From the NCBI RefSeq assembly GCF_014836935.1, contig NZ_JACSPW010000017.1, positions 1 to 64,000 of the forward strand: 64,000 nucleotides of DNA, written 5' to 3'. Below the pieces are notes generated by a model. The model had not been told where the DNA came from. It did not search any database and saw only the letters and a list, made by a program, of their open reading frames with translations. This DNA is from Solibacillus merdavium (GTDB taxonomy: Bacteria; Bacillota; Bacilli; Bacillales_A; Planococcaceae). Each line of letters starts with the position of its first letter. The stretch's first letter is position 1. Below, one piece after another: positions 41,218 through 60,367 of the stretch. A program made the position numbers and the translations under genes.

Positions 41218-41496
41218 TAATTTAACAAAAGTAACATTGCCAATGACCAAAAAAGTAGCGGTTGCCAATGCTGAAAAGAGAGGGAAAGACATGGGCTGTA
41301 ATCTTTCCTACAGTATGTAACAGGTGAACAACAGTTGAGAGGCGTTTCCTCGAAAAAATTTCTAGTAGGGGAAGACGGAATCGGCCGTTATCCGAATACG
41401 AGAGGATGTAGAAATACATCAATTAGGGTGGAACCGCGGAAGATGATAATAGCTTTCGTCCCTTGCATTTTTTGCAAGGGGCGGAAGCTTTTTTAT
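41218..41496 (+). ncRNA. T-box leader of hisS-aspS
   Basis: The T-box sequence AGGGTGGAACCGCG is at 41425-41438, followed by a strong terminator (41451-41495; stem from AGCTTTCGTCCC, T tract after). Stem I landmarks: AGTA (about 41250), AGAGAG (about 41277) and an apical GGGCTG loop. The presumed 3' side of the specifier loop reads GAACAAC (41326-41332). Counting as in the tryptophan T-box below gives CAA; shifting by one gives AAC (Asn). No His (CAC/CAT) or Asp (GAC) codon sits there. Uncharged tRNA should favour the antiterminator. Confidence 0.9.
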
Positions 41497-44734: not shown

Positions 44735-44989
44735 AACACGAATCCTAAAGTGTTCGTCGCTAAATTTGTTACTTAACACTTTTGACCGAACATTAAATCG
44801 TTGGGAGCTACTTATTACCGTAGCGGCAAACATGCCCCATTTGGAGCGGGACGTTTAAAGTTACGACTAGTGCACCCCCTTGCTATTCATGCGGGATCAA
44901 AACGATGTTGTTTAGCAAGACGGCACATTTGGGATTCGTATTTAATTTCTCTACTCTTCGACTAATAAGTTAGAAGGGTATTTTTTTTG
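44735..44989 (+). ncRNA. ssrS: 6S RNA (bsrB/ssrS type)
   Basis: A non-coding stretch between aspS and tcdA with its own promoter and terminator folds into a long rod. The closing stem pairs 44738-44752 with 44924-44939 (12 pairs, a bulge, 3 pairs). A second helix pairs GCTAAA (44759 on) with TTTAGC (44911-44916), flanked by GTC/GAC. A terminal hairpin GCTAC...GTAGC lies near 44798-44815. The mature RNA would be about 205 nt, ending near 44940; a terminator hairpin with eight T follows at 44951-44989. Size, rod shape and location next to aspS fit a Bacillus 6S RNA, which binds the vegetative RNA polymerase. Confidence 0.85.
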
Positions 44990-48741: not shown

Positions 48742-50034
48742 TTAACTTTTTGTTTCATTGCGGAATGATTTTAATTTTTCATAAATTGCAGCCATTCTTT
48801 TTTCTTCCCCAGCAATGACAGGTTGATAAAATTCCAACCCTACTAGTTCATCCGGTAAGTATTGCTGTTGAACCCAGCCTCCAAATGTTCCAATTGGGGA
48901 ATCGTGTGGGTATTTGTATCCGACATGACCGAGGGTTGCCGCTCCCGCGTAGTGTGCATCTTTAAGATGGTTCGGAATAGCACCTGTTTTTCCATCATGG
49001 ATCGCAGCTATTGCTTTGTCGAGCGCTTTATAGGCTGAATTTGATTTGTCAGAAAGACACATTTCCACTACAGCCGTTGCGAGGGGGATACGGGCTTCAG
49101 GTAAACCGAGCTTTACGGCTGCCTCAGTTGCTGCCTGTACATTTGCACCTACACTTGGATTTGCAAGACCGATATCTTCATACGCCATGACGAGAAGTCG
49201 CCGGCATACTGCAATTAAATCTCCACTTTCCAATAAGTGGGCTAAATAATAAAGTGCTGCATTTGGGTCACTGCCGCGGACAGACTTTTGAAGGGCTGAT
49301 AATAAATTATAGAAATTCGAACCCCCTTTATCCCCGAAAACACCAATCCGTTTAGCGAGTGCCTCTATCGCATTATCATTTAATTCAGTAACTCCATCCA
49401 CTTCATCTGAAGCATAATATACAGATTCAAGCAATGTTAAAGCTTTCCTCGCATCGCCGTTTGAAGCATTTGCAATATTTTCGATTTGTGTAGTTGTTGC
49501 TTCTATTTTTTCATTCCCTAATCCACGTTCTTTATCTTTTAATGCCATGTGAAGTAACTGTTTTACATCTTCTATTGTGAGCCGTTCCAACTGTAAAATT
49601 TCCCCACACCTTGAACGAATGGCTGGGTTGACATCGTGAAATGGATTTTCAGTTGTTGCACCAATAAGGATAATTGAGCCGTTTTCAACATGCGGCAGCA
49701 ATGTATCCTGCTGTAATTTGTTGAAGCGATGTATTTCGTCGAGAAACAAAATGACCTTTCCGCTCATCCGTGCATCCATCACAACTTGTTCAATGTCTTT
49801 TTTTCCGGCATGAGTTGCATTTAAAGCGAAAAAAGGGAGCTTTGTACTACCAGCAATGGCATTTGCGATTGAAGTTTTTCCTACTCCTGGAGGACCATAT
49901 AGCAGCATTGACGGAATATGGTCTTTTTCAATCATTTTAAAAAGTGGTGTATGTGGGCCAATAATATTCTGTTGTCCGACAATTTCCCGAATGGTACGAG
50001 GTCTCATTTTATAGGCGAGCGGTTCGTTCTGCAC
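48742..50034 (-). CDS. rarA: Replication-associated recombination protein RarA (MgsA)
   Basis: AAA+ ATPase (430 aa) of the RarA/MgsA/WRNIP1 family that acts at stalled replication forks with SSB. Walker [10 protein letters not shown], Walker [12 protein letters not shown], sensor [13 protein letters not shown] and the C-terminal tetramerisation region ([19 protein letters not shown]) are intact. I choose GTG 50034 ([15 protein letters not shown]) because AAGGAG lies 9 nt upstream; the in-frame ATG at 50067 precedes that site. Divergent from cymR, as yrvN in Bacillus. Confidence 0.95.
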
Positions 50035-50119
50035 AATTGTTCGCTCCTTTACTTTTTTATAGAACATAAACTTTATATCATTTATAATAAAGTATTTCCG
50101 AGTGGTTTAAAAGGAGTTA

Positions 50120-50128
50120 TGGTATAAT
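50120..50128 (+). promoter_or_regulatory. Extended -10 element of cymR
   Basis: TGGTATAAT (extended -10) about 38 bp before the cymR start. Confidence 0.55.
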
Positions 50129-50165
50129 AGATGTTATAAATGGACTAGAAAATAGAGGTGTTACA

Positions 50166-50585
50166 ATGAAAATTTCAACAAAAGGTCGTTACGGTTTAAC
50201 AATAATGATAGAACTTGCTAAACAATATGGAGGAGGACCAATTCCTTTGCGTCAAATTGCAGCAGACAAAGAGTTATCTGAAGCATACTTGGAGCAGTTA
50301 GTTTCTCCACTCCGTAATGCAGGACTTGTAAAAAGTGTACGTGGCGCTTATGGCGGTTATATGTTAGCACATAAGCCAAACGAAATTTCAGCTGCAGATG
50401 TTATTCGCGTATTGGAAGGTCCGATTCAACCGGTCGAAGGAATTGAAAATGAAGAGGCTCCTCAACGTGAATTGTGGATGCGCATCCGGGATGCAGTAAA
50501 AAATGTTTTGGACACAACTACAATTGAAGATTTAGCGAAATATACAAATAATGAAGTATCTGACGGCTATATGTTTTACATTTAG
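50166..50585 (+). CDS. cymR: Rrf2-family cysteine metabolism regulator CymR
   Basis: 139-aa Rrf2 regulator. N-terminal winged HTH begins MKISTKGRYGLTIMIELAK and contains LRQIAADKELSEAYLEQLV; the VRGAYGGYML wing and VIRVLEGP are family marks. No Fe-S cysteines are present, as in CymR, which represses cysteine-uptake and synthesis genes together with CysK. AGAGGTGTTAC precedes ATG 50166. First gene of the cymR-iscS-mnmA cluster. Confidence 0.95.
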   Translation: MKISTKGRYGLTIMIELAKQYGGGPIPLRQIAADKELSEAYLEQLVSPLRNAGLVKSVRGAYGGYMLAHKPNEISAADVIRVLEGPIQPVEGIENEEAPQRELWMRIRDAVKNVLDTTTIEDLAKYTNNEVSDGYMFYI

Positions 50586-50609
50586 TGTTATTTAAAGGAG
50601 TTAGTTAGT

Positions 50610-51755
50610 TTGAAAAATACAATTTACCTCGATCATGCAGCCACGTCACCAGTAGCACCTGAAGTCATTGAGGTGATGGCCCGTGCAATGGCGGAGGAAA
50701 GTGGAAATGCATCAAGTATTCATACAGTAGGACGCCGTGCACGTAAAGCACTGGATGAGGCGAGAACAAGCTTGGCTCAAAAAATCAACGCGAAATCGTC
50801 TGAGATAATTTTCACAAGTGGAGGTACAGAAGCCGATAATATGGCTATTTTTGGTACTGCCTATGCCCGCCAACATGAAGGGAAGCATATTATTACCACT
50901 CAAATTGAACACCACGCCGTTTTACATGCATGTGAAAAGCTTGAAAAAGAAGGCTTTACGGTGACTTATTTACCTGTCGATCGCACAGGCCGAGTAAGTG
51001 CAGATCAAGTAAAGGCTGCTTTACGTGAAGATACGATATTGGTAACGATTATGTATGGCAACAATGAAATTGGTACGATTCAGCCAATCGCTGAAATTGG
51101 AGAGGTTTTAAAAAACCATATAACAACATTCCATACTGATGCCGTCCAAGCTTTTGGCTTAGAGAAGATTGATGTTGAAGCACTTCATATTGATTTATTA
51201 AGTGTTTCTGCGCATAAAATAAACGGTCCAAAAGGCATCGGTTTTTTATATGCAAAAACAGGTGTAAAAGTTTCAAGCTTACTGCACGGTGGTTCTCAAG
51301 AAAAAAAACGACGCGCAGGAACGGAAAATGTACCGGCTGTTGTAGCATTTTCAAAGGCTGCAGACTTAGTCGAAGAAGAGCTTCAGCTGCGCAAAGAAAA
51401 ATATAATAATTTTAAAAATATTTTAATTGAACAGTTCAGAGTGGCAAATATCGATTTCCATATAAATGGTCATCAAACAGACGTGTTGGCACATGTGTTT
51501 AACGTGACATTCCCAGGAACAGATGTAGAGTCATTTTTAATCAATCTGGATATGGCTGGAGTACTTGTATCGAGTGGTTCTGCATGTACAGCAGGTTCGA
51601 TCGATCCATCCCATGTATTAGTGGCAATGTTTGGACAAGATGCGCCTGAGCTTCGTAGTTCCATTCGTTTCAGTTTTGGGTTAGGATTAACAGATGAGTT
51701 AGTGCGAGAAGCAGGTAAGCGTACTGCTGAAATTGTGAAACGTCTAACTTCGTAA
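50610..51755 (+). CDS. iscS: Cysteine desulfurase (IscS/NifS type, YrvO)
   Basis: PLP-dependent cysteine desulfurase (381 aa) moving sulfur from Cys to acceptors, probably MnmA next door for tRNA 2-thiouridine. YLDHAATSPVA start, FHTDAVQAFG, the PLP lysine in SVSAHKINGPKG and the active-site Cys in SSGSACTAGS are intact. Start TTG 50610 with AAAGGAG 9 nt upstream. Follows cymR by 24 nt. Confidence 0.96.
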   Translation: MKNTIYLDHAATSPVAPEVIEVMARAMAEESGNASSIHTVGRRARKALDEARTSLAQKINAKSSEIIFTSGGTEADNMAIFGTAYARQHEGKHIITTQIEHHAVLHACEKLEKEGFTVTYLPVDRTGRVSADQVKAALREDTILVTIMYGNNEIGTIQPIAEIGEVLKNHITTFHTDAVQAFGLEKIDVEALHIDLLSVSAHKINGPKGIGFLYAKTGVKVSSLLHGGSQEKKRRAGTENVPAVVAFSKAADLVEEELQLRKEKYNNFKNILIEQFRVANIDFHINGHQTDVLAHVFNVTFPGTDVESFLINLDMAGVLVSSGSACTAGSIDPSHVLVAMFGQDAPELRSSIRFSFGLGLTDELVREAGKRTAEIVKRLTS

Positions 51756-51814
51756 ATATATAAGGAAGACTTCGCGCCTTTTACGCGATTTGTCTAAGAA
51801 AAGGTGAATAGTAA

Positions 51815-52933
<1,119 letters not shown>

Positions 52934-52990
52934 TTTACGGTAGACGTTCATAATAATTGAGCGTCTATACTTTTGTTTTGAGGTGGAATA

Positions 52991-53656
52991 ATGGATACAA
53001 ACTATAATGAAATTGGAATTAAAGCATTTCAGGAGAAGCGTTATGAAGAAGCTGCACAAGCTTTTACCCAAGCAATTGAATCAAATCCAAATGATGCAAT
53101 AGGTTATGTGAATTTTGGTACACTCCTTGCAGCTATGGGAGATATCGAAAGATCAGAACGATTTTTCCAAAAAGCGATAACGGTTGATGAAAAAGCGGCC
53201 ACGGCATATTATGGCTTAGCAAATCTATATTATGAAGCAGAGCGTTATACGGAAGCTGCAAAACTGTATCAAAAGTCGATTGATTTTGGTATAGAAGGAG
53301 CAGATGCGTATTATATGTTGGCGAAATCCTTTGAGCGTGAGCAACATTTTAAATTGGCATTGCCATATATGCAGCGTGCTGCAGAGCTTGCGCCAAAAGA
53401 TCTGCAAATTCGTTTAGCTTACGGCATATTACTTTGTACAATGGAAATGTTCGATTTTGCAAAACCAGAATTGGAGTTTGTAATTGAAGAGGATTGGAAT
53501 AATGCAGATGCACACTACAATTTGGGTGTATTATATGCAGTTTCCACGACAGATACAGACAAAGCAAAATATCATTTAAAACAAGCTTATACATTACAGC
53601 CAGAATTCGAACAGGCGAAATATTTATATGATATGATTTGCCAACGTTCAAATTAA
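52991..53656 (+). CDS. yrrB: TPR-repeat protein (YrrB type)
   Basis: 221-aa cytoplasmic protein made of about six tetratricopeptide repeats (for example YEEAAQAFTQAIESNPNDAI and YTEAAKLYQKSIDFG). TPRs mediate protein-protein contacts. In Bacillus yrrB follows trmU, as here. TTGAGGTGG precedes ATG 52991. Partner unknown, possibly linked to tRNA thiolation by context. Confidence 0.93.
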   Translation: MDTNYNEIGIKAFQEKRYEEAAQAFTQAIESNPNDAIGYVNFGTLLAAMGDIERSERFFQKAITVDEKAATAYYGLANLYYEAERYTEAAKLYQKSIDFGIEGADAYYMLAKSFEREQHFKLALPYMQRAAELAPKDLQIRLAYGILLCTMEMFDFAKPELEFVIEEDWNNADAHYNLGVLYAVSTTDTDKAKYHLKQAYTLQPEFEQAKYLYDMICQRSN

Positions 53657-53814
53657 ATAGTGTCTATTTCTATAAAAAATATAAAGGAGTGGTGATTGAA
53701 GATTATTTTTCATTCATCACTTTTTTTGACTTAATAATGATAAAGAAATGAAATATATATTATGAAAACATTATGATATGATGGATTAAACTGACAATTG
53801 TTTGAGGTGATAAC

Positions 53815-54456
53815 ATGCAAGCTAAATTAGATAAATCAGACTGTATGTTTTTAATTTCGGATGAGAAGTTAAATCAATTTCAACAAATGATTGATGAACT
53901 TGATTTATTTACACTTGTACTTCCATTTGTTGAAGAATCTTACCAACGTTCTATTTGGATATTGGATATTTGGTATTCAATATCTAATGAAGAAATCAAT
54001 CGTATATCCAATCCGGAAAATACAATGATCTATCCATATAGGAATTCAATATTAGGGATTATTAAAACTTTACCAATAAAACGTTATATACAGCTTGCTC
54101 TTTATGAGAATGAAAGGTTAGCATTTTTATGTGCTATTTATATTTATAATGAGTTAGATGATTTTATTTCTAAGAAAATGGCTATAAAAGAAGAAGTTAA
54201 GGAAAACTTTGATGCACTAAAGAAATATAGCAATAAAAGTTTAAGACCCTTTTTTGACTCGAAATATATTGAATATGAGAATTATCCCAAAAAATTAGCT
54301 ATGTTGCAGAATACTGTCGTAAATGAATTGCACGAAATACATAAAAAATATGAAATACCATTGTCTTGGACTTTCGAAAAAGCAATTGATGATGCAAGCA
54401 AAGTTTATGAAGCGGTGTTCGGGCTAATAAATGATTGGGGTGGACGTGTTCCATGA
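53815..54456 (+). CDS. Uncharacterised 213-aa protein, first gene of a coupled pair
   Basis: Not recognised. Helical, soluble, Tyr- and Glu-rich (SWTFEKAIDDASKVYEAVFG at the C-terminus); no signal peptide or membrane segment. ATG 53815 has TTTGAGGTG upstream. Its TGA overlaps the next gene's ATG by 4 nt (ATGA), which indicates a stable two-gene unit with translational coupling. Codon use is more A/T-rich than the neighbouring housekeeping genes. I infer it works with the TPR/GGDEF-like protein. Confidence 0.75.
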   Translation: MQAKLDKSDCMFLISDEKLNQFQQMIDELDLFTLVLPFVEESYQRSIWILDIWYSISNEEINRISNPENTMIYPYRNSILGIIKTLPIKRYIQLALYENERLAFLCAIYIYNELDDFISKKMAIKEEVKENFDALKKYSNKSLRPFFDSKYIEYENYPKKLAMLQNTVVNELHEIHKKYEIPLSWTFEKAIDDASKVYEAVFGLINDWGGRVP

Positions 54457-55817
54457 TTATTTCAAATCAAATAGAACATTTAAAAAATTTGTATAAAGAC
54501 CTGAAATTTTTGGAAGTTATCCAATTTGGAACAATTACGTTACCTATTACGCTCCAAGAAAAACGGTATGATGATGCACTGATCTGTTATCAGTATCTAG
54601 CTTCTGCTTACTATGAAAACGGAAGCTATGAAAATTTCCACGTTGTTATGACAGAGTATGAAAAGTTATGTTTAACATATGGGAAAGATGAAAATAAAAT
54701 GTATTTTTATTATTTATATAGCCTTTTACAAGTTATTGTTAGAGACTTTGATGCAGCGGTAGAAGCAACAAAAAAATCAATCAAATATGCACATTTTTTA
54801 AAGTATCATGACCTAATTGTGGTGAATTATTATAATATTGCTGCCCAATTAGTCCATAAAAAGGAATTGGAAAAAGCAAGAATAGGAATGAGCTTGGCGA
54901 AGTTTTATAAAAATAACATTTGCGAATCAAATATCACGATTGTTAGAGGGTATATAGGGGCGCTCTATTATTTTGCAACAATGGGCAACAATGAGGAATT
55001 TCAAGAAGTAAAGCAGGTTTTTTTAAAACTTATAAAAGATAGACAAACATTTTATGATGCAAAGATTTCGTTTGCAGAAGCAATCTTAACATTAAACTTA
55101 GGGCAACTAGAGGAAAGTGTTATATTTTTTGAATATGCATACCTTCGATTTAAAGAGCAACAAAATATTATGTTTTTAATAAATATAGAAGAATATATTA
55201 ATAATTTTAATCTAGGTGATAAATTTCAATATACAAAAGAGCTAAGAGAAATTATTAAAAATTCACATCGAAAACCGTTGGATATAAATAATGTTAAAAG
55301 TGTATTGTCAGATTTATTTGAAGATGATACTTCCACCTTATCTATCAAGTATCCAAATGTCATTTCGAAAGAGCTAATCGTACAGCATGTTGAACATGCC
55401 CTTCAAAATAATGAAACACTGTATTGTTTCCATTGGTGTTTTATTACGGATGAAATTGAAGAGTTATTTGGTAAGTTATTCGTAGAACAGTTGTTGTTTA
55501 CATTATTTGAAACGGTTTATCACTTCATTTTTAAACATAATGCAGAAGTTAATGTCCTATCCAAAAATGAAGGAGAGGCATTTATAAGGGGTATATCAGA
55601 ATCGGAATTTTTCGAACTGTTAATGGAGTTAGAAGAGAAGCTACAATCAAAAGTAGTACATTCTAAAATGGGGATTTTGGAAGTACCGATACATTTTGGT
55701 TTTATACATTCAAATCAATTGCCAGAAAAGCAAGCTTCTTATGAACAATTAACAGCTCATGCTGATGCAAGCCTATATTATGCAAAGTCACACGGGCAAC
55801 TTTATATTTATAATTAA
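54453..55817 (+). CDS. TPR-like protein with degenerate C-terminal GGDEF domain
   Basis: 454 aa. N-terminal about 270 residues are helical repeats of TPR-like length (YDDALICYQYLASAYYENGS, DFDAAVEATKKSIKYAH). The last about 100 resemble a GGDEF domain: NEGEAFIRG stands where the GGDEF signature should be, MGILEVPIHFGFI matches the later strand, and AHADASLYYAKSHGQLYIY matches the C-terminal helix. The catalytic signature is lost, so cyclase activity is unlikely; it may bind a nucleotide or act as a scaffold. Start ATG 54453 overlaps the previous stop and has GGGGTGG 8 nt upstream. No output domain. Confidence 0.8.
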   Translation: MIISNQIEHLKNLYKDLKFLEVIQFGTITLPITLQEKRYDDALICYQYLASAYYENGSYENFHVVMTEYEKLCLTYGKDENKMYFYYLYSLLQVIVRDFDAAVEATKKSIKYAHFLKYHDLIVVNYYNIAAQLVHKKELEKARIGMSLAKFYKNNICESNITIVRGYIGALYYFATMGNNEEFQEVKQVFLKLIKDRQTFYDAKISFAEAILTLNLGQLEESVIFFEYAYLRFKEQQNIMFLINIEEYINNFNLGDKFQYTKELREIIKNSHRKPLDINNVKSVLSDLFEDDTSTLSIKYPNVISKELIVQHVEHALQNNETLYCFHWCFITDEIEELFGKLFVEQLLFTLFETVYHFIFKHNAEVNVLSKNEGEAFIRGISESEFFELLMELEEKLQSKVVHSKMGILEVPIHFGFIHSNQLPEKQASYEQLTAHADASLYYAKSHGQLYIYN

Positions 55818-55828
55818 TTCGAAATAGT

Positions 55829-55857
55829 TTGAAAAAAATATATTTAAGCTTTACAAT
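55829..55857 (+). promoter_or_regulatory. Promoter of the trpEG operon
   Basis: TTGAAA (55829-55834), 17-nt spacer, TACAAT (55852-55857). Predicted start near 55864, at the T-box 5' end. Confidence 0.7.
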
Positions 55858-55863
55858 ATAATG

Positions 55864-56087
55864 TATAGTAAAAGCAATGATGAAAGAAGAGTAGTAAAGT
55901 TTCGTTTTCTAGAGAGCTAACGGTCGGTGGAAGTTAGTAAACGCACTTTATGAATGGAATTTCTAGCTGCACGAAGGAAATGTCGTGCCGTAGCTCTCAC
56001 GTTACGAGATTTGAGTGGACTAATTTTTTTAGTCAATAAAGGTGGCACCACGGCTCTTTCGTCCTTTAATAACGAAAGGGCCTTTTT
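55864..56087 (+). ncRNA. Tryptophan T-box leader
   Basis: Stem I carries AGTA, AGAGAG, an apical GGTGG loop and the specifier context GAA-TGG-A, with the Trp codon TGG at 55955-55957. The T-box AGGTGGCACCACGG is at 56040-56053 and the terminator GGCTCTTTCGT / ACGAAAGGGCC with T tract ends at 56087. Uncharged tRNA-Trp should allow read-through into trpE. Specifier and downstream anthranilate synthase agree. Confidence 0.92.
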
Positions 56088-56122
56088 GTATGCATTTTTA
56101 GTTGAGTTGAGGAGAGATGAGC

Positions 56123-57511
56123 ATGGTAGTTGAGATGAGAAGTTATGTAGTAAAGCAAATAAATGGAGATACTTATACACCGATTTCTATTTATGAATCA
56201 GTGCAGGGGACAAAAAAAGTATTATTTGAATCGAATGCTAAATTTAAACATAATGGGCGCTATTCATTTATTGCATTTAATCCTGTAGGGGAGTTAAAAG
56301 GTGATGCAACAACGAGCACATTCCGTATTCATGACGAGCCTTTAGCAACCGAGCAACTCCCTGTGCTGGCAAAGTTAAAAGAATTACTGCCGATTTGTGA
56401 TGAGCAATTTCCGTTTGCCTTTTTCGGTGGAGCAATTGGCTATTTCGGCTATGAAACAGCCTTCCACTTTGAAAATATAGGGGAAATTGTAGGCGACAAC
56501 TATAATATGCCAGATGTTCATGTATATTTTTATGAAACATTTATCGTAATTGATCATTTATTGCAGCAAATTTCGATTGTTGCACTCGATCTTTTTGAAA
56601 AAGGCTATTCCGCTGAACAAATGCAGCAGAAAGTGGATGTAATTGAACAGATGCTTACTAAAGCAACACAGTTAACACCTAATAACCCTGTTGAAGTGAA
56701 ATTTTCTCCAACGATTAAAAAGGACTGCTTTATCGAAATGGTTGAAACTGCGAAAGAACATATACGTAAAGGTGATATATTTCAAGTTGTTTTATCACAA
56801 ACTTTTGAAGCGGATTATAGTGAAAATCCATTTTCGCTTTATCGGAAATTACGTACGTCAAATCCATCTCCTTATATGTTTTATATTGATTTTGACGATT
56901 ATACGATTTTAGGAACATCACCTGAAAGCCTAGTAAAAGTTCAGGATGGTATTGTGACGACGAATCCGATTGCAGGAACGAAACCTCGTGGGAAAACACC
57001 ACAAGAAGATGAAGCATTGGCGACATCGCTTTTACAGGATGAAAAGGAAATTGCCGAGCATAAAATGTTAGTCGATCTTGGACGAAATGATGTCGGTCGC
57101 GTTGCACAAATCGGAACGGTGCAAGTGACGAAATATATGGAAATCGAAAAATATAAATTCGTTATGCACATCGTGTCGGAAGTGTCTGGCAAATTGCGAG
57201 ATGATGCACATTTAGTCGATGTTCTTGCATCAAGCCTGCCTGCTGGAACTGTTTCAGGAGCGCCGAAAATTCGAGCGATGCAGATTATTAATGACTTGGA
57301 GCGTCGCAAACGCGGCATATATGCTGGGGCAATAGGTTATTTATCCACTTCAGGCAATATGGATTTAGCACTTGCGATTCGGACGATGATTGTAAAAGAT
57401 GGGAAAGCCTATGTTCAGGCGGGTGCCGGTATAGTGTATGACTCAGTGCCGGAGAAAGAATACGAAGAAACGTTAAATAAGGCAAAGGCATTGCTGGAGG
57501 TGCGCTCATGA
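56123..57511 (+). CDS. trpE: Anthranilate synthase component I
   Basis: About 462-aa chorismate-utilising enzyme making anthranilate with TrpG. I favour TrpE over PabB because the active-site motif is NPIAGTKPRG (PabB has PIKGT), and for SLPAGTVSGAPKIRAM, VDLGRNDVGRV, an N-terminal FESNAK/GRYSF region like the Trp feedback site, and the Trp T-box upstream. ATG 56123 is 8 nt from GGAG; ATG 56117 is only 2 nt away. Its stop overlaps the trpG start by 4 nt. Confidence 0.93.
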   Translation: MVVEMRSYVVKQINGDTYTPISIYESVQGTKKVLFESNAKFKHNGRYSFIAFNPVGELKGDATTSTFRIHDEPLATEQLPVLAKLKELLPICDEQFPFAFFGGAIGYFGYETAFHFENIGEIVGDNYNMPDVHVYFYETFIVIDHLLQQISIVALDLFEKGYSAEQMQQKVDVIEQMLTKATQLTPNNPVEVKFSPTIKKDCFIEMVETAKEHIRKGDIFQVVLSQTFEADYSENPFSLYRKLRTSNPSPYMFYIDFDDYTILGTSPESLVKVQDGIVTTNPIAGTKPRGKTPQEDEALATSLLQDEKEIAEHKMLVDLGRNDVGRVAQIGTVQVTKYMEIEKYKFVMHIVSEVSGKLRDDAHLVDVLASSLPAGTVSGAPKIRAMQIINDLERRKRGIYAGAIGYLSTSGNMDLALAIRTMIVKDGKAYVQAGAGIVYDSVPEKEYEETLNKAKALLEVRS

Positions 57512-58089
57512 TTTTACTCATCGATAATTATGATTCGTTTACGTATAATTTGTATCATCAAATTGCAGAGTTTGGTGAAGAAGTAAAGGTTGTTCGGAAT
57601 GATACTGTAACAGTTAATGATATTCGTTCAATGAAACCGAAAGCCATTGTTATTTCACCAGGTCCGGGTGAGCCAAAGGAAGCGGGTATTGTAATAGAAA
57701 TGATCCAACAGCTATACACAGAGTTTCCGATTTTAGGTATTTGCTTAGGGCACCAATCAATTGGGGAAGCTTTTGGGGCAACAGTGAGCCAGGCGAAAAA
57801 TATAATGCACGGCAAAACGAGTAAGCTTCGATTTGATAAAAAAGGTTTGTTTGAGCATTTTGAAAGGGAAATTGAAGTGATGCGCTATCATTCACTTATT
57901 ATCGAAAAAGAGACATTGCATGAGGAATTTGAGATTGTTGCAATAAGCGCGGATGATAAGGAAATTATGGCGATTCAACATTGTAAGTTCCCTGTATACG
58001 GTTTACAGTTCCACCCTGAGTCTATTGGAACAAAGCTTGGTTCCGAGATGATTAGGAAATTTCTAAAAGAGGTGGAGGTCCGTGTATGA
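57508..58089 (+). CDS. trpG: Anthranilate/aminodeoxychorismate synthase glutamine amidotransferase
   Basis: 193-aa class I glutamine amidotransferase that supplies ammonia to TrpE. Catalytic Cys in GICLGHQSIGEAFG, His/Glu in FHPESIGT, and the oxyanion PGPGEP are present. In many Bacillales one such subunit serves both TrpE and PabB. Coupled to trpE and to the next gene by ATGA overlaps. Confidence 0.94.
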   Translation: MILLIDNYDSFTYNLYHQIAEFGEEVKVVRNDTVTVNDIRSMKPKAIVISPGPGEPKEAGIVIEMIQQLYTEFPILGICLGHQSIGEAFGATVSQAKNIMHGKTSKLRFDKKGLFEHFEREIEVMRYHSLIIEKETLHEEFEIVAISADDKEIMAIQHCKFPVYGLQFHPESIGTKLGSEMIRKFLKEVEVRV

Positions 58090-58457
58090 TTCCAAAAGAT
58101 AAACATGATTTAGCGGCAGTGGAACAGTTAAAAAAAGCAGATGCTGAATTTGTCATCCCTATATTGCCACAACTGCTTGAATGGATTCAGGATATGAACT
58201 GGCCGGTAGCTGAGCCAATGGTCGAACTATTGCTTCACTATCCAAATGAGATAACTCCACTTGTTGAAGAGGTTCTTCGTGGAGACGATGATATGTGGAT
58301 TTACTGGTGCTTAGTAAGCATCGTACCGAAGCTACCGTTTTATTCGAAGCTTGTATTGGCAGATGCAGTGGAGAAAATTGCTGCTCTGGAGGAAAACCCA
58401 TTTAATGAAAGTAATATTGAAGCTGCTAAAGAGGCATTACAAAGTTTCGAACCATAA
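58086..58457 (+). CDS. DUF5071-like small protein
   Basis: 123-aa acidic helical protein (IPKDKHDLAAVEQLKKAD, later DDDMWIYWCLVSIVPKL) resembling DUF5071 HEAT-like proteins. Overlaps trpG by 4 nt (ATGA), so it is expressed with anthranilate synthase under the Trp T-box. No known role in Trp synthesis; linkage may be incidental. Confidence 0.8.
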   Translation: MIPKDKHDLAAVEQLKKADAEFVIPILPQLLEWIQDMNWPVAEPMVELLLHYPNEITPLVEEVLRGDDDMWIYWCLVSIVPKLPFYSKLVLADAVEKIAALEENPFNESNIEAAKEALQSFEP

Positions 58458-58498
58458 AAATATAGCCTAATCAGATATCTGGTTAGGCTATATTTTTG
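58456..58498 (+). terminator. trpEG operon terminator
   Basis: AAAATATAGCCTAATCAG / CTGGTTAGGCTATATTTT (one wobble), then T. Confidence 0.88.
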
Positions 58499-58597
58499 AG
58501 GGAATTGAAAAGAAAATGAGTCCAATTTTAAATATATATCCGTCTATAAAAACTGTATTACTCTAAAAAATACCGTTAAATAATAGGAATATTAACG

Positions 58598-58744
58598 ATG
58601 CAAACTTCGGCAATTTTAATCCTCTCTCCTTATTTTGGCTTACTAATTCCATTAACCATTCTATGTATTGTATTTTTTATACTCGTAACGTTTTTCGTAA
58701 TCATGCCATTATATCTAGAAATACAACAGGAGGAAAAATTTTAA
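58598..58744 (+). CDS. Possible small membrane protein, 48 aa
   Basis: ATG 58598 to TAA 58744. A 48-residue peptide with one long hydrophobic stretch (about residues 12-40) and a charged tail QQEEKF, as expected for a single-span membrane protein. TAGGAAT about 10 nt upstream is a weak ribosome binding site. No homologue recognised; could be chance. Confidence 0.35.
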   Translation: MQTSAILILSPYFGLLIPLTILCIVFFILVTFFVIMPLYLEIQQEEKF

Positions 58745-58746
58745 TT

Positions 58747-58784
58747 TTAAAAAAAATGCAGCCGAATTCAAATGTTCGGCTGCA
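58747..58784 (-). terminator. gpx terminator
   Basis: TGCAGCCGAA (58757-58766) / TTCGGCTGCA (58775-58784), perfect; on the minus strand a run of about nine T follows. Confidence 0.88.
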
Positions 58785-58805
58785 GTTACTCTTTATATGT
58801 CAACG

Positions 58806-59276
58806 TTATAGTAATTTTGTAATATCAGTTTCAGCCTTCATTGGATTATCCTTTGGGGCATAGCGTTTAATGACATTGCCATCCCGATCGACTAAAAACT
58901 TCGTGAAATTCCATTTTACCGATTGACCTAAAAGTCCTTTTGCCTCGGAAGATAAATGTTTAAACAATGGGTGAGCCTCTGCGCCGTTTACTTTAATCAT
59001 TTCATGCATTGGAAAAGTTACGCCATAGTCCATACGGCAAAATTCAGCAGCATCTTCACTTGAAGATAATTCCTGTTTAAATTGATCTGATGGGAAACCA
59101 AGTACGACAAATCCTTCTTCTTTATACTTTTCATAAAGTTCTTCGAGTTCAGAAAATTGATTCGTAAAGCCACATTTGCTCGCTGTATTGACGATCATCA
59201 TTACCTGCCCTTTATAGCGGTCTAATTCATATTGTTCCCCTTTTTCTGTTTTAACCGGGATATCATAAATATTCAT
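58806..59276 (-). CDS. bsaA: Glutathione peroxidase family peroxidase (BsaA type)
   Basis: 156-aa thiol peroxidase of the GPx family. Peroxidatic Cys in NTASKCGFTNQ, Gln in GFPSDQFKQE (usual GFPCNQF; the second, resolving-type Cys is Ser here) and the Trp/Asn motif VKWNFTKFLVD. In Bacillales these enzymes likely use thioredoxin or bacillithiol rather than glutathione. ATG 59276 with AGGAGGAGAG upstream. Monocistronic. Confidence 0.93.
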   Translation of the reverse strand: MNIYDIPVKTEKGEQYELDRYKGQVMMIVNTASKCGFTNQFSELEELYEKYKEEGFVVLGFPSDQFKQELSSSEDAAEFCRMDYGVTFPMHEMIKVNGAEAHPLFKHLSSEAKGLLGQSVKWNFTKFLVDRDGNVIKRYAPKDNPMKAETDITKLL

Positions 59277-59433
59277 TAATACTCTCCTCCTAAAAACCTA
59301 CTAATATTATATTTTGTATTATTATCGTACGGAAAAAATACCTGTATGTAAAATAATCCATTCCAATAGAATGAAAAATTAAAATATAATTATTGTCGAA
59401 AAAATGTCGAATGAGGAATTTTATTATGTAAAC

Positions 59434-59447
59434 GTGACAGTTGTCAC
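59434..59447. promoter_or_regulatory. Perfect palindrome upstream of the degV gene
   Basis: GTGACAGTTGTCAC, a perfect 14-bp palindrome, just after TATTAT (59422-59427), that is, near the probable transcription start. Candidate operator; regulator unknown. Confidence 0.45.
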
Positions 59448-59515
59448 TGTGTGAGAACTATGTTTGCGCTTACATTATGTGGAGCAAATAATTTTATACA
59501 TCAAGGGGATTTACA

Positions 59516-60367
59516 ATGACAAAAAAAATTGCATGGGTTACAGATACAGCGGCATTATTATCACCGGATTTTATAAAGAAGCATAACATACACGTGCTTG
59601 CATTGAATATTGTTTTTGAAGAGGGCGCATTGCGCGAAACAATTGATATGACACATGATGAATTTTACGATAAATTAAAAAATGCAAAAGCACATCCAAA
59701 AACATCCCAACCAGCTTTTGGTGAACATGTAGCACTATATGAAAAATTAAAACAAGAAGGCTATGATTGTGCAATTGCCATTCATACATCCGAGCAATTA
59801 TCGGGAACAGTATTAAGTGCTCCAATGGCCGCTGCACAAGCGGGTTTTAGAAATTATGTTATTGATGCAAAAATTGGGTCCTACCCAATGCAATACATGC
59901 TGGAGTTAGGATTGGAACTGGAAAAAGAAGGCCTAGAACCTGAAGAAATAGTAGAGAAAATTGAAGCAATGCGTGGAAATGCAGAACTTGCCTTTATACC
60001 AGCGAGCTTAGAACAGTTGAATAAAAGTGGAAGAGTTTCAGGGACAGCTATGTTTCTTAGTAATTTATTAAATATTAAATTAGTCATTGAATATAATAAA
60101 GAAGGCGGCGTAGAGGTTGCACAAAAAGTACGTGCCGATAAGCGTGCGAAAAAAGCCGTTATTGAAAAACTACAGCACGCCATTCAAAAATCACAGGTAA
60201 AAGAAGTGGCTGTTATACATTGTAATAATCTTGCTGGAGCAATTGAGTGGAAAAAGGAACTAGAAGTTCAGTTTCCCAAAATTATTTTTACTCCGACACC
60301 ATTATCTGCATGTGTAGGTGTTCATGCGGGTGAAGGGACTTTAGGTCTAACTTGGGTACGTGAATAG
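59516..60367 (+). CDS. DegV family fatty acid-binding protein
   Basis: 283-aa DegV/EDD protein. WVTDTAALLSPDF, KTSQPAFGEH and SEQLSGTVLSAP form the acyl-carboxylate pocket, and the C-terminal domain starts ASLEQLNKSGRVSG. Homologues (FakB) present fatty acids to the kinase FakA for phospholipid synthesis. TCAAGGGGATT precedes ATG 59516. Upstream palindrome suggests specific control. Confidence 0.93.
   Translation: MTKKIAWVTDTAALLSPDFIKKHNIHVLALNIVFEEGALRETIDMTHDEFYDKLKNAKAHPKTSQPAFGEHVALYEKLKQEGYDCAIAIHTSEQLSGTVLSAPMAAAQAGFRNYVIDAKIGSYPMQYMLELGLELEKEGLEPEEIVEKIEAMRGNAELAFIPASLEQLNKSGRVSGTAMFLSNLLNIKLVIEYNKEGGVEVAQKVRADKRAKKAVIEKLQHAIQKSQVKEVAVIHCNNLAGAIEWKKELEVQFPKIIFTPTPLSACVGVHAGEGTLGLTWVRE

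Follow-up and report, generated by a model that had tools for sequence, protein, structure and literature searches.

In Escherichia coli, the VWA-domain protein ViaA binds RavA through its middle domain and FrdA through its VWA domain, and it requires an N-terminal domain whose exact function is called not known in the accessible part of PMC10585395, from which these statements are taken. According to the sections available of a second study (PMC9489729), ViaA residues 1-319 are sufficient to bind RavA, the VWA part is credited with lipid binding, and the N-terminal part has a sequence like that of no other known protein. Several degenerate GGDEF proteins of E. coli make homo- or heteromeric contacts in two-hybrid tests (PMC5635695, available in part). 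As far as the accessible part of PMC7159879 goes, the nearest published idea to the locus described here is that of conflict systems built on MoxR and vWA, some of which include domains for nucleotide signals.

The window, a stretch of 64,000 nucleotides from Solibacillus merdavium, contains on its forward strand, to which all features of the pair belong, two adjoining genes that are here called A (53815..54456, 213 amino acids) and B (54453..55817, 454 amino acids). A GAGGTG stretch upstream of A (53804..53809) resembles a ribosome-binding site. The ORFs confirm the 4-nt ATGA overlap given in the preliminary description, which joins the start codon of B to the stop codon of A (54453..54456); the start of B was taken as the ATG at 54453, while the mechanical ORF list uses a TTG at 54435 (460 amino acids). 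The A/T-rich composition noted in the same place also holds, the G+C content being 0.29 for A and 0.30 for B versus 0.37 for the window, and 6 of 620 same-length sliding windows (step 100, those over the pair included) are as G+C-poor as the pair. Phenylalanine, tryptophan and tyrosine together make up 14-15% of the residues of A and B, a raw figure taken without a control set. Promoter-like matches in the region of the pair show no excess over shuffled sequence.

The pair is preceded by a yrrB-like TPR gene (TPR by Pfam) and followed by a T-box leader (55868-56069, Rfam 128 bits) and a trpE-like gene. A DUF5071 protein (58086-58457, Pfam E 1e-36) is encoded beyond the trp-like genes, and a rarA-cymR-iscS-mnmA group lies upstream of the pair. 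The window also contains a second T-box (41234-41466) and a 6S RNA (44739-44939). The names yrrB, trpE, aconitase, rarA, cymR and beta-helix, as used here for neighbouring genes, are presumed identities, recognised from the sequence. Inspection of the ORFs from 48742 to 60367 revealed no MoxR or VWA gene close to the pair.

Searches of A against Pfam, NCBIfam, PADLOC and the PDB sequences returned nothing above a cut-off. Two proteins of genus g3, each 480 residues long, were matched over their first 200 residues when the A profile was searched more widely (E 3e-5 and 2e-4); both carry a VWA domain, and the gene preceding each encodes a MoxR ATPase. In NCBIfam, the VWA proteins are nearest to ViaA (E 1e-22 to 3e-19) and the ATPases to RavA (E 3e-57), far below the equivalog cut-offs in either case. 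Comparison of profiles by hhalign, the P-values of which are those of single comparisons, aligned A over its full length with 32 VWA N-domains (P 3.8e-11). The match was also obtained when 19 N-domains were aligned separately (P 2e-10) and with 11 N-domains that all come from outside the family (P 1.7e-6), and ten window-type A proteins alone matched a combined set (P 2.2e-5). Eight controls set against A, namely the remainder of the VWA protein, the TPR and GGDEF parts of B, MoxR, RarA, DUF2785, ndh and CBS, reached at most 0.4% probability, some of these families being small (3 and 6 rows), and six further control comparisons in a later round gave at most 0.5%.

Plain hmmsearch gave a weaker signal. 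At E up to 10, the A profile recovered 9 of the 32 VWA proteins, a small set in which the best domain E-value was 1.1e-10, and it recovered 1 of 12 when distant relatives were part of the set. In the reverse search, N-domain profiles were run over 755 distinct ORFs, of which 52 were VWA and 67 A-family proteins, and the top 26 non-VWA matches were all A-family with either of two profiles; the best E-values were 1.6e-7 and 1.3e-8, falling to about 0.2 by rank 26, and the A protein of the window itself stood at 0.8. The share of A-family proteins in this search is high by design, since the ORFs come from A-rich loci, and the ranking is still clear. Together these comparisons indicate that A is homologous to the helical N-domain of ViaA-like VWA proteins of Bacilli. 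The first protein had been described simply as helical; the helical domain stands, and what had been overlooked is its homology to the N-domain of VWA proteins that partner a MoxR ATPase.

Two short motifs of A contain conserved residues. In the DIW of A residues 51-53 (53965..53973), the aspartate is nearly invariant among A proteins as well as VWA N-domains, and the tryptophan nearly invariant only in the latter. In the YPKKL of residues 157-161 (54283..54297), the proline is invariant in the 24 rows of profile A1, which was built from 24 A proteins, and the tyrosine is present in at least 90%. The A protein ends after the N-domain, without the middle and VWA domains. Since N-domains extend beyond the family and no A was detected there, descent of A from the VWA protein is the most likely course. 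The possibilities that A is a TPR or a GGDEF fragment (0.1% and 0.3% probability) and that B is itself a relative of the VWA N-domain (0.1%) were rejected by the same kind of comparison.

In its middle and VWA parts (residues 201-466), the ViaA of E. coli is clearly related to the VWA proteins of Bacilli (P 1.9e-22), and its N-domain shows no detectable similarity to A or to the N-domains of Bacilli (0.1-0.2% probability, repeated with wider sets). The VAN fold of 7UGC is therefore not claimed for A. AlphaFold models from two-row alignments of the window and Solibacillus faecavium proteins had mean pLDDT values of 35 and 42, too poor for a comparison of folds.

Gene B encodes a TPR protein with a degenerate GGDEF domain. 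Alignment and profile searches place the TPR region at approximately residues 1-270 (54453..55262), and the GGDEF-derived domain covers about residues 300-454 (55350..55814). Both parts had been proposed from the sequence of this gene, the second as a GGDEF-like end with its signature lost, and both are borne out: Pfam TPR_12 matches 8 of 20 B-family members and Pfam GGDEF 7 of 20 at E up to 0.1 (best GGDEF match 1.1e-4), and intact TPR-GGDEF proteins from related genera can be aligned with B over its whole length. The B of the window gives a weak match to PF00990 (E 0.031, residues 334-449), below the cut-off. Among solved structures, the B profile matches the DosC cyclase (E 0.004, profile stretch 333-457). 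The C-terminal domain is thus homologous to GGDEF, weak as the signal is for the window protein alone. The B protein of the window contains no GG[DE]EF; NEGEAF (residues 372-377, 55566..55583) stands about where the signature would be expected, and one glutamate of the signature loop may align. A C-terminal motif of the GGDEF family, ADASLYYAK (residues 437-445, 55761..55787), is retained, its tyrosine being kept in all 45 proteins aligned, 35 of them paired with A and 10 intact.

The TPR part of B raises the question of a peptide sensor, since the B profile matches RapH over 46-278 (E 9e-5), in a list of 75 mostly TPR matches. B could then be a Rap/RRNPP-like TPR protein and A the partner that it holds or releases, a role for which the regular linkage of strong A places to B (described below) would be suitable. 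However, designed and eukaryotic TPR proteins score equally well or better in the same search, and no peptide gene was noticed among the ORFs of at least 60 amino acids at the loci read; this interpretation is considered unlikely.

The catalytic positions of the C-terminal domain have been replaced. The metal-binding aspartate, the second aspartate of that strand, and the base-contacting asparagine and aspartate of ten intact relatives correspond to Cys, Ile, Glu and Glu in the window B; the metal- and base-contacting positions are invariant in these ten relatives and variable among 35 paired proteins. The residue roles are those usually given for GGDEF domains. Nor was an RxxD, which is taken here to be the I-site motif, seen before NEGEAF when the alignment with intact relatives was inspected by eye. 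The preliminary description had suggested that the pair is responsive to c-di-GMP or nucleotides, and the Cys, Glu and Glu at the metal- and base-contacting positions, together with the loss of GG[DE]EF, speak against that part of it. A nucleotide-responsive scaffold, in which the domain has kept its affinity for c-di-GMP, GTP or some other nucleotide, would agree with its GGDEF origin and with its constraint, the ratio dN/dS relative to S. faecavium being 0.105 for this domain and 0.24 for the TPR part. GGDEF matches were found in 29 of 29 genomes searched, 6 to 29 in each, so that c-di-GMP is probably made there, and the degenerate GGDEF protein CdgI, which has an intact I-site, binds c-di-GMP according to the accessible part of PMC5635695. 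Against it weigh the replacement and variability of the contact residues and the missing I-site motif, and such binding is judged improbable. The low dN/dS of the GGDEF-derived part implies that the dead domain is maintained by selection.

Loss of the signature coincides with the presence of A. In a tree of 45 TPR proteins, a single branch divides the intact from the degenerate proteins with support of 100/98, and an A gene lies within 300 bases of all 35 degenerate proteins and of none of the 10 intact ones. This set was drawn from loci fetched through A or B matches, with B-profile matches of E >1e-8, ORFs shorter than 380 amino acids and duplicates dropped, so that the split B of genome G007, the B-like gene of locus L119 and the short TPR-like ORFs of locus L061 are absent from it. 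Since the first loci had been picked via A or B, 20 B-profile matches without a listed A nearby were read separately. Seventeen of them carry GG[DE]EF, with no A gene in the stretch read; another is an ORF cut short ahead of the signature, and the two without GG[DE]EF (G008 and G004) proved to adjoin an A gene that the A survey had overlooked. With the shortened ORF left uncounted, an A neighbour is thus present at 37 of 37 degenerate and 0 of 27 intact TPR proteins.

Window-type A and B both occur in the same 11 of the 16 genomes of the window's genus, the window's own genome included, and the same five lack both, four of these having weaker A relatives. The nearest named relative is that of S. 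faecavium (Caryophanaceae), with 76% identity for A and 72% for B. Distant A relatives pointed to further A-B pairs elsewhere, one of them in the window's own genome (contig C53). When 200 genomes of the family were searched with profile A1, 68 of them gave matches, at 115 places in all. A place is termed strong at 75 bits or more, and a B neighbour is a B-profile match within 800 bases on the same strand. An adjoining B is found at 45 of the 49 strong places, which agrees with the two-gene module suggested earlier and with the co-occurrence expected of it; a listed B-profile match accounts for 42 (38 in the order A-B, 4 in the order B-A), and three more were recognised by reading the neighbourhood (L092, L093, L096). 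The four exceptions are in G010 (C1:2154006), G039, G021 (C1) and G056. Among the 66 weak places, 29 were examined; a B-like gene or fragment is present at two (L119, L101) and none at 27, with the downstream side of one of the 29 (L127, at a contig end) outside the view.

Several lone A-family genes (L094, L095, L097, L099, L100, L102 and L103; genera g7 and g14) are located near a rarA-like gene, in a neighbourhood that corresponds to the rarA-cymR-iscS-mnmA group of the window; at several of these loci a cymR-like gene, named by eye like the rarA-like one, follows past the rarA-like gene.

When 299 genomes were sampled across the class, A was detected in six, all of which belong to the window's family. 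A sample of 261 genomes from the order covered an equal number of genera (19), all listed genomes being in the family, and added little breadth. The A-B pair is a conserved, repeatedly duplicated two-gene module of one bacterial family, comprising Solibacillus and its relatives.

Two loci of genome G030 are of irregular structure. At L101 (3794-4810), a 338-residue ORF has the A domain behind other sequence and adjoins a B-like fragment, possibly a fusion or a frameshifted pair. At L061 (3227-5940), there is a run of short TPR-like ORFs, two of which match B, and no A gene was noticed alongside.

The two genes diverge in step and are under purifying selection. Distances among A and among B proteins are correlated with r 0.96 over 35 pairs and r 0.79 over 19 pairs thinned to less than 45% A identity, and none of 5000 permutations reached as high a value. 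Relative to S. faecavium, dN/dS is 0.12 for A and 0.18 for B. Broken copies exist: B is split in G007 and shortened in G014, and A contains a stop codon in G006. These copies would suit a reading of the pairs as decaying relics without function; the low dN/dS values and the joint divergence across many paralogues argue against it, and it is regarded as very improbable.

The module also evolves fast. Its identities to S. faecavium stand against 93-99% for four neighbour genes, and in 28 of 28 genome pairs A and B show more nonsynonymous divergence than the two neighbour genes. A single allele replacement as the source of the high synonymous divergence of the pair from S. faecavium was rejected, the excess over neighbours being inconsistent across the 28 genome pairs. 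Fast divergence, several paralogous A-B copies per genome and the broken copies of G006 and G007 are features that could be expected of a conflict module, be it a toxin-antitoxin pair, a defence system or a decoy like the MoxR-vWA conflict systems. One B-A pair of G047 (L058, 1717-4971), on a 14,067-base contig, has a gene nearby that looks ParA-like by eye, and is possibly a plasmid copy. In the accessible part of PMC7159879, the published conflict systems join vWA-MoxR with nucleotide-signal domains, rarely GGDEF. However, neither A nor B matches any defence protein model of PADLOC-DB 2.0.0 (E up to 0.01), A has no Pfam match above the cut-off, and a tblastn search of 72,556 plasmid records at E 0.01 recovered neither A nor B. 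A conflict function is accordingly given a low probability.

The genomic context of some members points to a particular operon. In 9 of the 20 regions read (genera g1, g15 and g19), genes for MoxR, VWA, DUF2785 and an aconitase-like protein stand in a row. The MoxR proteins of this operon match Pfam bpMoxR, and a MoxR gave the one PADLOC match, at E 0.007, which is nothing of note. Two genomes of genus g19, G050 (L187) and G105 (L202), have the row MoxR-VWA-DUF2785-A-B, all in one direction, before the aconitase-like gene; in a third, G033 (L175), A-B is not between DUF2785 and the aconitase-like gene. In two genomes of genus g18 (G116 and G032), DUF2785, a lone A, the aconitase-like gene and a flanking beta-helix-like gene remain, and MoxR and VWA are missing; a lone A likewise follows DUF2785 in G024.

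Rows of MoxR, VWA and DUF2785 ahead of the aconitase-like gene were located at L172 (4503-7963), L187 (9692-13305) and L202 (3942-7566).

Of the 200 genomes, 26 have the pair, and 23 of these have VWA as well, versus 43 of the 174 without the pair (Fisher p 5e-10). This association is confounded by genus: all 16 genomes of genus g1 have VWA, and genus g10, in which eight genomes have an A match, shows no association, VWA occurring in three of four with the pair and in three of four without it. Strict dependence of the pair on MoxR-VWA was rejected because of three pair-bearing genomes, G021, G102 and G138, that have no VWA match at E 1e-20 (G021 has none at 1e-10 either, and G102 is 90% complete). 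The A-B module is historically tied to the MoxR-VWA operon, without needing MoxR-VWA everywhere.

Direct support covers the homologies, the linkage, the joint divergence, the loss of catalytic residues, the constraint and the gene row in two genomes, and a mechanism can be proposed on this ground. The A and B proteins would be two subunits of one physical complex. A would be a separate copy of the N-terminal helical domain found in ViaA-like VWA proteins, minus the middle and VWA domains, and B would act as a TPR scaffold, either descended from TPR-diguanylate cyclases or a sister to them. Its GGDEF domain would have lost c-di-GMP synthesis and been kept as a protein-interaction or dimerisation module. 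The module would have arisen in this family, probably beside a MoxR-VWA-DUF2785 operon, with A and B then duplicated together to several places. A could use the surface by which the VWA N-domain contacts its target, be that a client, the membrane or the machine, and B could bring a client or a dimer to A. In this way the pair may either assist the MoxR-VWA chaperone as an additional adaptor or compete with it. As A consists of the N-domain only, it would more likely bind that domain's own partner than MoxR directly.

That A-B is an adaptor or scaffold complex which arose beside the MoxR-VWA machine and may modulate it is held with about as much confidence as doubt. Several results count against it: no MoxR or VWA gene adjoins the window pair, three pair-bearing genomes give no VWA match, the hmmsearch link of A to the VWA proteins is weak, A lacks the middle domain through which E. 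coli ViaA binds RavA, the E. coli N-domain is not detectably similar to A, 27 of 29 weak A places have no B, and some copies are broken. A more specific version is possible and more doubtful: that A-B is a new type of regulator for MoxR AAA+/VWA chaperones, in which a duplicated free-standing N-domain on a scaffold of TPR and dead cyclase competes with, or redirects, the VWA protein.

If this regulator reading is true, it would be, as far as the literature searched extends, the first stand-alone use of the N-domain of a VWA partner, and the first GGDEF-derived link to RavA-ViaA-type machines beyond the published conflict systems. The open-licence full text searched contained nothing that joins ViaA with Solibacillus, or GGDEF with TPR and Lysinibacillus, and 'VAN fold' together with ViaA occurred there only in the JBC publication. 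In the accessible parts of the open-licence literature, DUF2785 was found only in a genome report; degenerate GGDEF with tetratricopeptide and Bacillus led only to Vibrio work, and RavA with ViaA and Firmicutes led to a group of papers that includes PMC7159879. The A family, being such an N-domain alone and mostly with one fixed partner, would offer a clean route to the binding target of the domain, its kinship with the E. coli domain lacking a sequence signal. The loss of GGDEF with A and its retention without A form a natural experiment on how a signalling enzyme may become a scaffold once its partner is fixed.

Among known systems, the MoxR-vWA ternary conflict systems resemble the present locus in that the MoxR of the related operon matches bpMoxR and in that those systems can include nucleotide-signal domains, to judge from the available part of PMC7159879. 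They differ in that A-B itself is without MoxR and VWA, and without a PADLOC match of note. The likeness to ViaA is that the N-domain to which A is homologous belongs to Bacilli proteins that match ViaA in their middle and VWA parts and are encoded next to a RavA-like gene. Unlike ViaA, A has no VWA and middle domains, stands beside a TPR/GGDEF-derived protein, and has no detectable sequence similarity to the N-domain of the E. coli protein (VAN fold, 7UGC, PMC10585395). The TPR-GGDEF proteins of the same family, which are predicted diguanylate cyclases, align with B from end to end, whereas B has lost GG[DE]EF, has its contact residues replaced and is adjoined by A. Finally, B resembles PdeR, PdeK, CdgI and CsrD of E. 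coli, whose GGDEF domains are without an active A-site according to the accessible part of PMC5635695; in contrast to these proteins, the degenerate domain of B is coupled both to TPR repeats and to A.
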